DNA of 64,000 nucleotides, taken from positions 2,046,001 to 2,110,000 of the forward strand of contig NZ_AQXW01000004.1 in assembly GCF_000376825.1 (NCBI RefSeq), read 5' to 3'. Below, one piece after another: positions 1,693 through 42,177 of the stretch. The first letter of the stretch is position 1. Every line of letters starts with the position of its first letter. Below the pieces are notes generated by a model that was not told the DNA's origin, searched no databases, and saw only the letters and a list, made by a program, of their open reading frames with translations. Made by a program: the position numbers and the translations under genes. The DNA is from Demetria terragena DSM 11295 (lineage in GTDB: Bacteria > Actinomycetota > Actinomycetes > Actinomycetales > Dermatophilaceae).

Positions 1693-3219
1693 TCACGCCT
1701 TCGCAAACATCGACAGCATGCGGCGAGTGACGGCGAAACCACCGAAGATGTTGATGCTGGCCAGCAGGATCGCGACCGCAGCGAGCACGGTGATGGCTGC
1801 CCCACCGCCGATCTGCAGGAGCGCGCCGACCACGATGATCCCGGAGATCGCGTTGGTGACGGACATCAACGGGGTGTGGAGCGCGTGATGCACATTGCCG
1901 ATGACGTAGAACCCGATCACGATCGCGAGCGCGAAAACGGTCAGGTGGACCCGCAGTGCTTCCGGTGAGAATCCGGCGACGAGGAAGAGCGCGGCGGCTC
2001 CCACGCCGATGAACGCCACTCGACGGTGTGGTGATGGTGGTTTCTCGGGTGGTGAATCTGTCGGAGACGCAACCGGTTTCGTGGCCGCTGGTGCCGCCGA
2101 GACCTCGACCGGAGGCGGGGGCCACATGCTCTCGCCGTTCTTGACGACGGTGATCGACCGCTGTACGACGTCGTCCAGATCGAGCACCAGTCGCCCGTCC
2201 TTCTCCGGCGTCATGAGGGTCAGGAGATTGACCAGATTGGTGCCGTAGAGCTGGGATGCCTGGGTGGGGAGCCGCCCGGCCAGGTCGGTATAGCCCAGGA
2301 TCGTGACGCCGTTCTCGGTTACGACTTTCTCGCCCGCCACTGCGCCCTCAACATTGCCACCATTGGCCGCGGCCATGTCGACGATGACGCTTCCGGGCCG
2401 CATCGCCGCGACCATCTCGGCAGTGATCAGGCGAGGCGCGGGGCGACCGGGGATGAGCGCAGTCGTGATGATGATGTCGGACTGCGCAGCATTCTCGGCG
2501 TACAACTGGGCCTCAAGCGCTTGGTAGTCGGCGCCCATCTCCTTGGCGTAGCCAGTGTTGGGCTCATCGGAGTCATCCGACGCCTCGACCGCGAGATACT
2601 CGCCGCCGAGGGAGCGCACCTGATCGGCGACCTCGGGGCGAGGATCAGTGGCGCGTACGACCGCGCCAAGGCTTCCGGCGGCGCCGATCGCAGCCAGGCC
2701 GGCGACACCGGCCCCGGCGACCAGGACATGTGCCGGCGGCACCTTGCCCGCCGCTGTGACCTGACCGGTGAAGAACCGGCCGAACTCGTGGGCGGCCTCC
2801 ACGACCGCGCGGTAGCCCGCGATATTTGCCATCGAGGACAACACGTCCATGGACTGCGCTCGCGAGATGCGCGGGATGGCATCCATCGACAGGGCCGTGA
2901 TCGGGTAGGTCGCCAGATCGGCCACGGCCTGCTCGTCGAAGCGCGGGTTGAACAGCGCAATGACCGTGGCACCTTCAGCCAAGGAACCGAGTTGCTCGCG
3001 CGATGGTGCATTGACGCCCAGCACGATGTCAGCTCCGGTAGCAGGCCCCACAGTCGCGCCCGCCTCGACGTAGGCCTGATCGGCAAAACTGGATGACGCA
3101 CCCGCTCCGGGATCCACCACCACGTCATAGCCGAGGGTGCGGAGTCGTTCTACCGTCGCAGGTGTCGCCGAGACCCGGGTTTCACCGCTCGCGGCCTCGT
3201 TGAGAACTCCGATCTGCAC
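1693..3219 (-). CDS. pntA: NAD(P) transhydrogenase subunit alpha (fused form)
   Basis: This subunit binds NAD(H) and supplies the first helices of the membrane proton channel. The 508-residue length equals the single-chain E. coli-type PntA; many actinobacteria split it into PntA1 and PntA2. The N-terminal alanine-dehydrogenase/PNT domain runs to about residue 375 and includes the dinucleotide-binding segment [17 protein letters not shown] Pro/Ala/Ser-rich linker follows, then three to four hydrophobic helices over the last 110 residues. The start is the GTG at 3219, which has GAGGAG eight bases upstream and gives the usual beginning (M)[12 protein letters not shown]. It is followed directly by pntB. 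Confidence 0.95.
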
Positions 3220-37349: not shown

Positions 37350-38609
37350 TCAGGGGATATCTGGCCAGGAAACCCCCCGGGCGCGCGTGCTGTATGCCTC
37401 CTGCAGGATCGCAACGAAGTCACCTCGCGAGACCCGCCCGCTGTACCCGCTCGCCGGGTGCTTGACCTGGACAGCGTCAGCTGACCGTTCATCGTCACCG
37501 ACGACGGCGATCACCGCATCTCGGCGTTGGCGGCTGCGCCGGATGCGGGCGCCGAGAGAGCCGTCGACCTCGGTGCATGGTCGAAGGCCAGCGGTCAGGA
37601 CATCGTCGTGCAGGCGTCGCGCATACCCGTCGTGATCCTCGTTCACTGGCAGCACGCATACCTGAATTGGCGCTAGCCACAATGGCATTCGGCCTTGGTA
37701 GTGCTCAAGTAGCGATGCGACTACACGTTCCATGGAACCCACGGTGCCGCGGTGAATCATGGCCACTCGGTGGCGTCCGCCGTCGGCGCCGTCATAGGTG
37801 AGGTCGAAGCGTTCCGGCTGGTTGAAGTCCAGTTGTACGGTAGCGATCGTGTCTTCGTGGCCGCGCCCGTCGTGTACCTGCAGGTCGAGTTTGGGGCCAT
37901 AGAACGCGGCTTCGCCGGGGGCGTCGACGAGGTCAAGACCGGTTCCGGGAAGCACTCGCCCGGCTGCTTCGCGTAGCGCAAGCTCCGCATCGGCCCATTG
38001 TCTGGCGTCGCCAAGGTAGCCGGAACCGTTGTCCCGCAGCGACATTCGTACGTAGTCGACCGGAAGTCCTATCACATCCTGGGCGTGAAGAGCTGAGCGA
38101 AGGGCGCGGACGGCTTCGTCGGCGACCTGATCCGGACGGCAGAAGACGTGGGTGTCGTCCAGGTTGATCTGCCGCACCCGGCTCAGGCCGGAGACCACAC
38201 CTGAGCGTTCAGCACGGAACATCGGTGCGAGTTCGTTGAGGCGGATCGGTAACTCGCGATAGGAGTGCCGCGAAGCGGCGTAGACCAACGCGTGGTGCGG
38301 GCAGTTCGCTGGTCGCAAGACGAGGTCGTCGTCGCCAGACTCGGCCCCGAGTTGCATGACGGGGAACATGTCCCCGCTGAACTTGGCCCAGTGCCCAGAA
38401 CGCTCGAACAGTTCGCGCTTGGCGATCAGCGGGGTGTGGACGCCGTGGCAGCCGTCAGCGCGCGCGATGTCCCGTGCGAGTTGTTCGAGTTCGTCGCGGA
38501 TGACGGTCCCGGCCGGCAGCCACAACGGCAGTCCGGCGCCGACCAGCGGGTCGGTGGCAAAGACAGCCAGCTCGCGGTTGATCTCGCGGTGGTCGAGCAC
38601 GTGGTCCAT
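37350..38609 (-). CDS. thrS: Short threonyl-tRNA synthetase lacking TGS and editing domains
   Basis: This class II synthetase of 419 residues corresponds to the catalytic and anticodon-binding parts of bacterial ThrRS (about 640 residues); the N-terminal TGS and serine-editing domains are absent. The three zinc ligands are conserved: C103 (RPANCPHH), H154 (DDTHVF) and H286 (AMIHRGTVGS). Motif 2 is FRAERSGVVSGLSRVRQ; the C-terminal domain starts near PLWLAPIQVCVL. It should therefore charge tRNA-Thr. The ATG at 38609 has AGGAG upstream. Lack of editing suggests a second copy with a special role, such as tolerance to a ThrRS inhibitor or expression on starvation. A threonine-codon attenuator precedes it. 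Confidence 0.88.
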   Translation of the reverse strand: MDHVLDHREINRELAVFATDPLVGAGLPLWLPAGTVIRDELEQLARDIARADGCHGVHTPLIAKRELFERSGHWAKFSGDMFPVMQLGAESGDDDLVLRPANCPHHALVYAASRHSYRELPIRLNELAPMFRAERSGVVSGLSRVRQINLDDTHVFCRPDQVADEAVRALRSALHAQDVIGLPVDYVRMSLRDNGSGYLGDARQWADAELALREAAGRVLPGTGLDLVDAPGEAAFYGPKLDLQVHDGRGHEDTIATVQLDFNQPERFDLTYDGADGGRHRVAMIHRGTVGSMERVVASLLEHYQGRMPLWLAPIQVCVLPVNEDHDGYARRLHDDVLTAGLRPCTEVDGSLGARIRRSRQRRDAVIAVVGDDERSADAVQVKHPASGYSGRVSRGDFVAILQEAYSTRARGVSWPDIP

Positions 38610-38650
38610 GGGTTCTCCTGATCGAGTGGAGTCGCCACGGGGCAAACGAA

Positions 38651-38673
38651 ACCCCGGAGCGTGGCTCCGGGGT
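38651..38673 (-). terminator. Attenuator terminator of the short thrS
   Basis: On the minus strand ACCCCGGAGC pairs perfectly with GCTCCGGGGT around a 3-base loop, followed by TTCGTTTG. It lies between the leader peptide and thrS (42 bases before the start), so a terminator here makes sense only as a conditional one. Confidence 0.8.
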
Positions 38674-38696
38674 GAGTGGTTGTCAGTGCAGCCGCG

Positions 38697-38744
38697 TCAG
38701 CGCCGGAGGTGATCCGGCGTCGTCGTGTGCTGGGCGCGCTGCAT
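38697..38744 (-). CDS. Threonine-rich leader peptide of the thrS attenuator
   Basis: A 15-codon frame encodes MQRAQHTTTPDHLRR, with three successive ACG threonine codons followed by a TGA. It precedes a terminator hairpin and a threonyl-tRNA synthetase gene. No Shine-Dalgarno sequence is visible. TACACT ends seven bases before the ATG, so the transcript may be leaderless, as is common in actinobacteria. The Thr codons overlap the first strand of hairpin 38701-38719. Function is inferred from arrangement. Confidence 0.7.
   Translation of the reverse strand: MQRAQHTTTPDHLRR
38701..38719 (-). promoter_or_regulatory. Attenuator pause/anti-antiterminator hairpin (regions 1:2)
   Basis: On the minus strand CGCCGGA and TCCGGCG form a 7-bp stem with a TCACC loop, starting within the third Thr codon. 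CTCCGG from its second strand can instead pair with CCGGAG in the 5' arm of the terminator at 38651-38673. This gives the mutually exclusive structures expected of ribosome-mediated attenuation. Confidence 0.65.
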
Positions 38745-38760
38745 GGTGGAGAGTGTACGC

Positions 38761-39702
38761 ATGTGCGCCGAGCCGGGACATCGACTTCCTGTCGATGGCC
38801 GCGATGTGGTGGTCGTTCTGAACTATCGCGGCCGGGCCGACACCGAGGATTGTGTCGCGGCGCTGCTCGCGGACCCAGCGCCGCCCGCGGTGATTGTCGT
38901 CGACAACGGGTCAGGAGATGGCGTCCTGGAAGCGGTACGTTCCCGCTGGCCGGACGTGGTGACGCACCAGACTGGCACGAACCTCGGCTTCGCCGGTGGG
39001 ATGAACGCCGGGCTCCGGATGGCACTCGGCGGGGGTGCGCGCACAGTCACGGTTCTCAACAACGACACCGTCGTTCCGGCTGGTGCCGTGAGTGCTTTGG
39101 CGGCGCGTGCGCTCCATGGTGACTTGGTCAGCCCCGTCGTACGCCGGGTCGACAGTTCGGTGTGGTTCGCCGGAGGGGTCGTGAATGCCGAGACAGGGGT
39201 GCCCGAGCACATCTTCGATGAGCGGTTAGCGCGGCTGCCCGTCGACGGCATGGCGCGGCAGAGCGACGTGCTCGCTGGATGCTGCCTGACCGCAACCGCC
39301 GAGACCTGGGGACGGATTGGGCTGTTCGATGAGCGCTACTTCCTCATGTTCGAGGACTCTGATCTGAGTTTGCGCGCGCGGGCAGCCGGGGTCCCTCGGA
39401 CGGTGCTGACCGACGTGCAGATCGAACACAAGGTATCGGCGTCATTCCAAGGAGCGATGGGCCGTTTGGGGGCGTACTACTTCTTGCGCAATGCACTGCT
39501 CTTGACGCGCGAGCACGGCGGTGGATCGCTATCGCAGCGTTGGCGTTTGCTGCGGACGCGTGTGCTACCTAACGTGACGGCTGCTGTGCGACAAAGGGAT
39601 TGGCCCGCTTCCAGACTTCAACTGATCGTCATCGGTGCAGCGCTGGGAGATCACGCACGGCGTAAGTATGGCCGGGCGTCGGAGTGGCTAGAGGCGCGTT
39701 AG
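38761..39702 (+). CDS. Family 2 glycosyltransferase (rhamnosyltransferase-like)
   Basis: This 313-residue GT-A enzyme starts DVVVVLNYRGRADTEDCVAALL, has VIVVDNGSGDG for nucleotide-sugar binding and VTVLNNDTVVPAGAV at the DxD-equivalent position, then GLFDERYFLMFEDSDLSLRARAAG (acceptor/catalytic ED motif). These features match WbbL-like transferases that add sugars to cell-wall polysaccharides at the membrane's inner face. The ATG at 38761 has GGAGAG upstream. Its promoter must overlap the opposite-facing thrS leader, whose ATG is only 17 bases away. Confidence 0.87.
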   Translation: MCAEPGHRLPVDGRDVVVVLNYRGRADTEDCVAALLADPAPPAVIVVDNGSGDGVLEAVRSRWPDVVTHQTGTNLGFAGGMNAGLRMALGGGARTVTVLNNDTVVPAGAVSALAARALHGDLVSPVVRRVDSSVWFAGGVVNAETGVPEHIFDERLARLPVDGMARQSDVLAGCCLTATAETWGRIGLFDERYFLMFEDSDLSLRARAAGVPRTVLTDVQIEHKVSASFQGAMGRLGAYYFLRNALLLTREHGGGSLSQRWRLLRTRVLPNVTAAVRQRDWPASRLQLIVIGAALGDHARRKYGRASEWLEAR

Positions 39703-40678: not shown

Positions 40679-42136
40679 TCAGGCTGCCGCGTTTGGCTGG
40701 CGCATGCTGCGAGGCCGAAGGTCCCAGATGACTGTCGAGGCGGTGGCGGTGGCGGTGTATTCATCGCGGTGCACGATGGTGTGATGTCGCTGGCATAGCA
40801 GTGCTGAGTTGGTGAGGCTGGTGGGTCCGCCGTGAGACCACGGAATGATGTGGTGGACCTGGCACCAACTGGGCGGTCTGTCGCACCCGGGGTAGGTACA
40901 ACATCGGTCCCGTTGGATGACGGCGGCTCGCAGGCCTCGGGTGACCAAGCGTTCGGAACGTCCGACGTCGAGAGGTTGACTGCCTGACCCGAGAACCATG
41001 GGCAGGATCTCAGCGTCGCACGCGATCTCCCGAATCTGACTGGCATTCAACGATGTTCCCGCTTCGGTACGCCCGCATCCGCGCACATTTCCGACAAGAA
41101 CGTCGAGATCGATAGTGACCACAAGACGGGCGGTGCCGCTGGTCGGGGTCGCGCCGTTGTCGATGGCCTCGGCTCCCCGCGTGAGGAGAAGGACAAGTGC
41201 GTCAGCAGCGCGCTTGTCGGCCTGTCGCGGATCGGGCTCGCCGGTCTTCTGGCCGCTGGTGTGGCGATGGAAAACGTCCTCGCAGCAAGAGTTTCCTGGG
41301 GTGGGCGCCGACAGGGCGTTGATGGCGTGGCGCACGTGGGCCGCATGCGTTGGGGCGAGATCGGCGACCAAGCGATGCATGCCGTTCGGCAGCTCCGACC
41401 AGGTCACCGATTCGGCGTGGTCGAGGCGCTCATCGAGGTCGTTCAGGAAGGTCTCGTCGGCGTACGTGGCGATCACGCGCTGGGCGAGCTCTCGGATCGC
41501 CTTGGAACCCGACCCAGCCGGAAGGTTCAGAAAATGCCCGAACACGGCGTCACGATGTGCGCTGGGCAGAACGGGTATGACTTTGTCGACCTCGATCAAC
41601 GCAGTGCGCGCGGCGGCGACGCCGACCGAGTTGGCAGTCACTGCCGCGGCGAGCACTGTATTACGGCGCTGTGTGCATGCTGTGGCGACTTTGGCGATCC
41701 GTGAGGCGATGAGGGGTTCAACGCCCGGAAGCCGCAAGATCTCGCAGGTGTCTGCGTTGCTCTGGTCGGGCGGGTCGTGATGAACGTCTTCATCGGGACA
41801 GTCGACGAGGGGCATGAGTGGACCTGACGTCGGCGTTGCTGCCGGTGGCAGCAGGCGGTCGAGGTCCTCGCCAGTGCTGAGACGCGAGACCCACTGAGCC
41901 GGCCCGGCAGCAGTCGACTCGTGCACCATGCCTCGCTGAATAGCCTCGGCCACGAGGCTCACGGCGGCTGTCTCAGCCACCTGCAGCAGCGCCAATACCT
42001 CGCGGGTCAGCGCGGCTAGGTCACGAGTGCCGCGCTGATGGTTCGATTCGTGCAATCGCGACACCGCATCCACGGTCGTGTGCAATTGCGCGACCGTCTC
42101 GCTGACCTCGCTGTCACTGGTCGTCGTGCCCACCAT
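40679..42136 (-). CDS. DUF222/HNH endonuclease-like protein (13E12 type), SOS-controlled
   Basis: This 485-residue protein belongs to the actinobacterial DUF222 family with a C-terminal HNH nuclease fold: CTYPGCDRPPSWCQVHHIIPWSHGG and ALLCQRHHTIVH, including paired zinc Cys and catalytic His. The N-terminal 300 residues are the helical DUF222 region. The family is multi-copy in actinobacteria; its DNA target is generally unknown. The ATG at 42136 has GGGGAGG eight bases upstream. A perfect LexA box lies between the -35 and -10 elements, so the gene should be induced by DNA damage. Confidence 0.9.
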   Translation of the reverse strand: MVGTTTSDSEVSETVAQLHTTVDAVSRLHESNHQRGTRDLAALTREVLALLQVAETAAVSLVAEAIQRGMVHESTAAGPAQWVSRLSTGEDLDRLLPPAATPTSGPLMPLVDCPDEDVHHDPPDQSNADTCEILRLPGVEPLIASRIAKVATACTQRRNTVLAAAVTANSVGVAAARTALIEVDKVIPVLPSAHRDAVFGHFLNLPAGSGSKAIRELAQRVIATYADETFLNDLDERLDHAESVTWSELPNGMHRLVADLAPTHAAHVRHAINALSAPTPGNSCCEDVFHRHTSGQKTGEPDPRQADKRAADALVLLLTRGAEAIDNGATPTSGTARLVVTIDLDVLVGNVRGCGRTEAGTSLNASQIREIACDAEILPMVLGSGSQPLDVGRSERLVTRGLRAAVIQRDRCCTYPGCDRPPSWCQVHHIIPWSHGGPTSLTNSALLCQRHHTIVHRDEYTATATASTVIWDLRPRSMRQPNAAA

Positions 42137-42177
42137 CCCACTCACCTCCCCCGCTTCGCCGCACCCGGCCTATGACT

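Follow-up and report, generated by a model that had tools for sequence, protein, structure and literature searches.

A conserved candidate threonine attenuator before short threonyl-tRNA synthetase genes of actinobacteria

Introduction

Attenuation of aminoacyl-tRNA synthetase genes is already on record in actinobacteria. Attenuators of trp, trpS and leuS were described in Corynebacterium and Streptomyces by Seliverstov et al. (2005), who found no threonine-gene structure (PMC1262725); like the element considered here, they consist of a leader, an antiterminator and a terminator placed before synthetase or biosynthesis genes. Among tested systems, the nearest is trpRS1 of S. coelicolor, which encodes an auxiliary synthetase of an actinomycete and is under ribosome-mediated transcriptional attenuation (Vecchione and Sello 2010, J Bacteriol 192:3565, cited in PMC4787780). 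Compared through that citing paper only, it differs from our locus in its amino acid (tryptophan, not threonine); its enzyme is indolmycin-resistant.

Second threonyl-tRNA synthetases (ThrRS) with an expression pattern of their own are also known. According to the account in PMC4787780, thrZ of B. subtilis is a second ThrRS gene induced at low charging of tRNA-Thr; it is governed by a T-box, i.e. by direct binding of tRNA, whereas the leader described below is of the translated type. The ThrRS T2 of Anabaena is likewise a second enzyme with poor or absent editing, expressed unlike its housekeeping counterpart, but it is induced by zinc shortage and keeps a degenerate editing domain, while the protein encoded at our locus has none (PMC4787780). 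In S. lividans TK24, a leader named thrL (peptide MKRVRPFLETTPGFVPAR) was listed upstream of thrS (SLIV_19410) in a 2021 reannotation; it was described as leaderless, one hairpin was noted, and termination was called unclear for want of a U-rich stretch (PMC8079986).

Here we document the anatomy and conservation of a comparable element, the covariation of its alternative helices and its link to thrS, starting from a window of 64,000 nucleotides of Demetria terragena DSM 11295 (contig NZ_AQXW01000004.1, positions 2,046,001 to 2,110,000). A preliminary description of this locus had remarked that such leaders were known for amino-acid biosynthesis operons but not for thrS in actinobacteria. The S. 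lividans listing of 2021 (PMC8079986) corrects the latter part.

Results

Anatomy of the D. terragena locus

The following features were located, all on the minus strand of the window and given here in the order in which they would be transcribed.

38757-38752, minus strand: -10 element TACACT (TANNNT), 7 nt 5' of the leader ATG
38744-38697, minus strand: leader peptide ORF MQRAQHTTTPDHLRR followed by a stop, 15 codons, ATG at 38744, stop TGA ending at 38697
38743-38738, minus strand: 5' arm of outer helix P0, TGCAGC, at the start of the leader ORF
38726-38718, minus strand: three consecutive regulatory Thr codons, ACG ACG ACG
38719-38701, minus strand: hairpin 1:2, CGCCGGA/UCCGGCG
38719-38713, minus strand: strand 1, CGCCGGA, overlapping the third Thr codon and the Pro codon
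38708-38701, minus strand: strand 2, CTCCGGCG, partner of strand 1 (protector) or strand 3 (antiterminator)
38692-38687, minus strand: 3' arm of P0, GCTGCA, just past the leader stop
38673-38651, minus strand: intrinsic terminator hairpin 3:4, 10-bp stem, -19.8 kcal/mol
38670-38665, minus strand: strand 3, CCGGAG, partner of strand 2 (antiterminator) or strand 4 (terminator)
38650-38643, minus strand: interrupted U tract TTCGTTTG, tail of the terminator
38619-38615, minus strand: thrS Shine-Dalgarno sequence AGGAG, which CTCC at 38631-38628 could mask (4 bp)
37350-38609, minus strand: short thrS gene, 419 aa, ATG at 38609

The 15-codon frame with three successive ACG codons, hairpin 1:2 and the terminator, as claimed in the preliminary description, are all present on this strand, and its proposal that CTCCGG of strand 2 (CUCCGG in RNA) can pair either with strand 1 or with arm 3 of the terminator is borne out. 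It had not reported the -10 box without a Shine-Dalgarno sequence, the outer helix P0, the nature of the gene as a short paralog or the second, full-length thrS of the genome. Since TACACT lies 7 nt upstream and no Shine-Dalgarno site precedes the leader ATG on the minus strand of the window, MQRAQHTTTPDHLRR is probably leaderless, with transcription starting at or next to the A of the ATG. The leader TGA lies 1 nt past strand 2 (slightly farther downstream in other loci), a placement that would allow a finishing ribosome to mask strand 2.

An intrinsic terminator stands between the leader and thrS, with a tail that is T-rich but interrupted; the U tract is short and broken in the window and likewise in most relatives. 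It is the only terminator-like site in the segment 38500-39000, against 0.1 expected from shuffles, and both its fold (z = -4.9) and that of the 105-nt leader (z = -4.6) are unusually stable. No Rfam family reached its threshold across the window, and when the leader was searched with relaxed cutoffs, the only matches were below threshold and to unrelated families. The T-box model did not match at the gathering score, nor even at E values up to 5, and the covariance model of the Thr leader (enterobacterial thrABC) gave no match; a T-box or another Rfam family was therefore rejected as the identity of the element.

A divergent glycosyltransferase gene begins on the plus strand with an ATG at about 38761, and its ribosome-binding region overlaps the thrS promoter and the start of the leader; approximately 20 bp (window 38742-38763) are common to the 5' ends of this gene and of the thrS leader. 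Elsewhere in the window, positions 40679-42145 hold a reading frame that ends in an HNH-type motif and looks similar to the 13E12-repeat proteins of actinobacteria.

Conservation of the leader in related loci

A scan of GTDB genomes yielded 70 actinobacterial loci (L004-L073), one of them without upstream sequence; the remaining 69 and the window form a first set of 70 testable loci. A comparable Thr-rich leader with hairpins was found in every one of these. Three consecutive codons of the Thr-Thr-Thr-Pro type occur in 67 (66 with TTTP, one with TTAP), and in the other three (L027, L034 and L039) two adjacent Thr codons were read by eye in a similar leader. Because the homologues keep the leader and the hairpins, what had been a plausible reading of one sequence can now be regarded as a predicted regulatory element that is conserved and far from chance.

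Within the 67 loci, the first Thr codon is ACG in 50, ACC in 12, ACT in 4 and ACA in 1, the second is ACG in 62 and ACC in 5, and the third, which lies inside hairpin 1:2, is ACG in 66. Throughout the first set the leader peptides vary nearly everywhere outside the Thr and Pro codons. Codons 1 and 2 are thus kept through synonymous changes while the flanking residues drift, as would be expected of a Thr-rich regulatory leader ORF. Apart from the Thr/Pro codons and the strands of the hairpins, the leader alignment showed no conserved loop.

A TANNNT motif is separated from the start codon by 6-8 nt in all 67 loci, a count that is slightly circular, about six loci having been given an upstream in-frame start by that very rule. 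This spacing fits leaderless transcripts, as for thrL of S. lividans (PMC8079986). Near the thrS start, a helix that could mask the Shine-Dalgarno sequence spans 38631-38615 in the window, and in some relatives (noted at L012, L020, L022, L024 and L029) it reaches 7-9 bp with different sequences.

Covariation of the alternative helices

Pairing statistics were taken from a model-based alignment of 103 rows. In the antiterminator 2:3, 96.6% of cells are paired, compared with 27-74% in slid registers, and 44 cells are changed on both sides; in none of 500 shuffles was either its pairing or its covariation score attained. At the top pair of this helix, one count gives U-A in 50 sequences, C-G in 35 and U-G in 7, with 6 unpaired, and another gives U-A in 51, C-G in 37 and U-G in 5, with 6 mismatches. 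The covariation counts refer to sequences and not to independent events; with a few exceptions, the switch between U-A and C-G follows the division into two clades. When the same base of strand 2 is set against its partner in strand 1, an A-C mismatch results in 31 sequences, and it is therefore strand 3 that strand 2 follows. Hairpin 1:2 and the terminator together contain 8 pairs with double changes, and a G+C-rich 10-bp stem with a T-containing tail, the stem of which covaries, is present in nearly all loci.

The leader thus has a mutually exclusive, covarying antiterminator of the kind found in classical attenuators. The preliminary description had named covariation analysis of homologous upstream regions as a check, and had held that attenuation would be contradicted if relatives failed to conserve the Thr codons or the alternative pairings. 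Here the codons are retained through synonymous changes, strands 2 and 3 change together, and pairs of 2:3, of 1:2 and of the terminator all covary.

The outer helix P0, formed by the first part of the leader ORF and a segment immediately past strand 2, recurs among the loci. Its forms differ by genus with complementarity kept (GACCGCA/TGCGGTC, CAGGTCA/TGACCTG, TGTCAGG/CCTGACA and GTCAGCAGGT/ACCTGCTGAC). It is present in 65 of 67 predicted folds, with a fold energy of -28.9 kcal/mol, compared with -24.3 kcal/mol when the flanks are shuffled.

Association with thrS and distribution

The distribution of the element is patchy and follows that of the short gene. In the window's family (40 genomes), short thrS occurs in 9, each of which has a strong leader match directly upstream, i.e. 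in 9 of 40 genera; none of the other 31 genomes, which lack short thrS, gave a leader match of comparable score. In a class sample of 395 genomes, with short thrS called at an identity of at least 46%, the gene was found in 61, and an adjoining model match in 58 of these. One of the remaining three has an obvious leader below threshold (seen by eye) and two are cut at contig ends, so that a leader precedes all 59 short thrS genes with upstream sequence in the class. All model matches with E < 1e-6 and a visible downstream gene precede a thrS, and a whole-genome search with model R1 gave a single strong site. The predicted attenuator is therefore a conserved element of well over 100 actinobacterial loci.

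Full-length thrS genes with N-terminal domains lie behind the same leader and hairpins in three cases (G242/L098, G355/L183 and G378/L116); two of these genomes, G355 and G378, yielded no short paralog at the cutoff applied. The switch is therefore not confined to the short paralog.

Weak class-level matches away from short thrS (E > 1e-6) were rejected, as those checked had no Thr leader and no sign of thrS. Nor was a second match in L007 taken for a further switch: positions 3040-3200 of that locus hold a decayed partial duplicate of the terminator and the first short-thrS codons, with the intact copy lying about 0.9 kb downstream.

The short ThrRS and its full-length paralog

According to Pfam, the short ThrRS consists of the catalytic (class II core) and anticodon-binding domains only, without a TGS or editing domain, and its alignment to the 565-residue NCBIfam thrS model begins at residue 172. 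The same genome has a second, full-length thrS, a frame of 719 aa whose product is 37% identical to the short ThrRS and contains the editing-associated tRNA_SAD domain that Pfam did not find in the latter. The short protein keeps the segments NCPHH, DDTHVFC and MIHRG, which we take to be the catalytic Cys/His (zinc-ligand) segments of solved ThrRS structures. Since these are kept and the editing domain is absent, it is probably an active, non-editing spare enzyme; this activity we infer from the sequence.

Discussion

The element is very probably a ribosome-mediated transcription attenuator that senses the charging of tRNA-Thr and regulates the gene of an auxiliary ThrRS lacking an editing domain. 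Ribosome-mediated threonine attenuation, already favoured in the preliminary description, appears the best reading in the light of the kept Thr codons and the covarying alternative pairings. The RNA would start at the leader ATG. When Thr-tRNA is plentiful, a ribosome would pass the Thr codons, reach the stop codon and cover strand 2; once it had departed, or if none had loaded, strand 2 would be held by P0 and hairpin 1:2. Whether strand 2 is covered or held, hairpin 3:4 would form and transcription would stop before thrS. When charged tRNA-Thr is scarce, through threonine shortage or because the housekeeping ThrRS is blocked or insufficient, the ribosome would be expected to stall at the first Thr codons. 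Judging by the size of a ribosome's footprint, a ribosome stalled there would cover strand 1 as well as the 5' arm of P0. Strand 2 would thereby be released and, with strand 4 still to be synthesised, could pair with strand 3, allowing transcription of the spare ThrRS gene.

Leader translation might instead act through Rho, or on the translation of thrS by way of the AGGAG masked by CTCC, rather than through the intrinsic terminator. In line with such control, the U tract is broken, the authors of the S. lividans record saw no U-rich stretch (PMC8079986), and the masking helix attains 7-9 bp in loci of the Nocardia/Rhodococcus-like and Nocardioides-like groups (over 62 loci, the combined p is about 4e-8). 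This support is clade-specific, however, since the helix has only 4 bp in the window and is absent in several relatives; the analysis revealed no competing pairing by which stalling would expose the Shine-Dalgarno sequence, and the covarying G+C-rich 10-bp stem has its T-containing tail in nearly all loci. We therefore regard control through Rho or thrS translation as unlikely. It is less likely still that the leader answers general translation stress or antibiotics within a WblC/WhiB7-like programme and not Thr-tRNA specifically. Such a programme is suggested by the presence of thrS2 among the WblC-activated synthetase genes of S. coelicolor (PMC7157823), yet what the leaders chiefly conserve at the coding level is their Thr codons, and the WblC box GAAAWY lies upstream of the -10 element in a single locus of the 67 (expected number 0.45), which is not that of the window. 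A WblC/WhiB7 box near the promoter was thus rejected as being at chance level.

Direct binding of the leader by the product of the short gene or by uncharged tRNA would have parallels in other phyla, where both mechanisms are known for thrS. The operator of E. coli thrS is an example of direct-binding control, and the antitermination of thrS and thrZ in B. subtilis is cited in PMC4787780. Nevertheless, neither a T-box nor any other Rfam family matched at threshold, and the leader, which is short and has the form of a translated sequence, is devoid of a conserved loop beyond the Thr/Pro codons and hairpin strands, all of which makes direct binding highly improbable. CCGG pairings are common at high G+C content, and a GC-rich hairpin pair could in principle have met a random ACG run before thrS by chance; we give this next to no credence, as it is refuted by the retention of the element in well over 100 loci with selection at the level of codons and base pairs. 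A ribosome-mediated attenuator responding to charged tRNA-Thr thus remains our preferred reading.

The peptide MKRVRPFLETTPGFVPAR precedes short thrS in two sampled genomes of one Streptomyces-like genus. Given this identity, thrL of S. lividans can be placed in the same predicted attenuator family, i.e. among leaderless TTP leaders directly before short thrS, the S. lividans gene being matched by the identical peptide only. Its leader has two Thr codons, compared with three in the window, and its record includes neither an antiterminator, nor the short-paralog nature of the gene, nor the phylum-wide spread (PMC8079986). In the literature searched, which covered few subscription journals, no description of the attenuator family was found. 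The kind of mechanism and one member, listed in 2021, are therefore known, whereas the family, its wide spread and its tie to a short ThrRS paralog appear undescribed. The element appears to be the threonine counterpart of the attenuators of actinobacterial Trp and Leu synthetases; its comparative signature is unusually strong, and Rfam has no family for it. Through it, an editing-less ThrRS paralog that is widespread and apparently unstudied becomes linked to a clear signal, scarcity of charged tRNA-Thr, and the purpose of this paralog (starvation backup, inhibitor resistance or tolerated mistranslation) becomes directly testable in Streptomyces. As a compact leaderless attenuator, it also offers a system for studying stalling on leaderless mRNAs.

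The codon choice deserves separate comment. ACC is the commonest Thr codon of the window genes, whereas the regulatory codons in the window and in about 105 related leaders are mostly ACG, whose share at the first two Thr codons is 75% and 93%, compared with 31% in window genes. Simple threonine sensing does not require such a preference. The idea that the terminator tail (UCGUCGU) pairs with the ACG codons was considered and rejected, complementarity within loci being no greater than between permuted loci. As this pairing is unsupported and codons 1 and 2 lie outside hairpin 1:2, sensing of a single isoacceptor is possible. One may speculate further that the ACG leader reads mainly one tRNA-Thr isoacceptor, and that the switch goes beyond replenishing charged tRNA: an editing-less ThrRS would be induced when threonine or ThrRS1 activity is limiting, and the cell would, as a programmed response to starvation, either tolerate Ser-for-Thr mistranslation or retain a drug-insensitive spare; we consider this combined proposal rather doubtful.

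The short ThrRS keeps the equivalent of G463 (FYGPK) and has Q at the position of L489; as a full-length housekeeping ThrRS of an actinobacterium (L183) shares this Q, it is not diagnostic. With the FYGPK glycine intact, these residues give no diagnostic sign of an active-site change conferring resistance to borrelidin or obafluorin. In two genomes (L190 and L191) the short ThrRS carries an N-terminal His/Asp-rich tail (e.g. HDRDHDHDHDH), which is possibly metal-binding.
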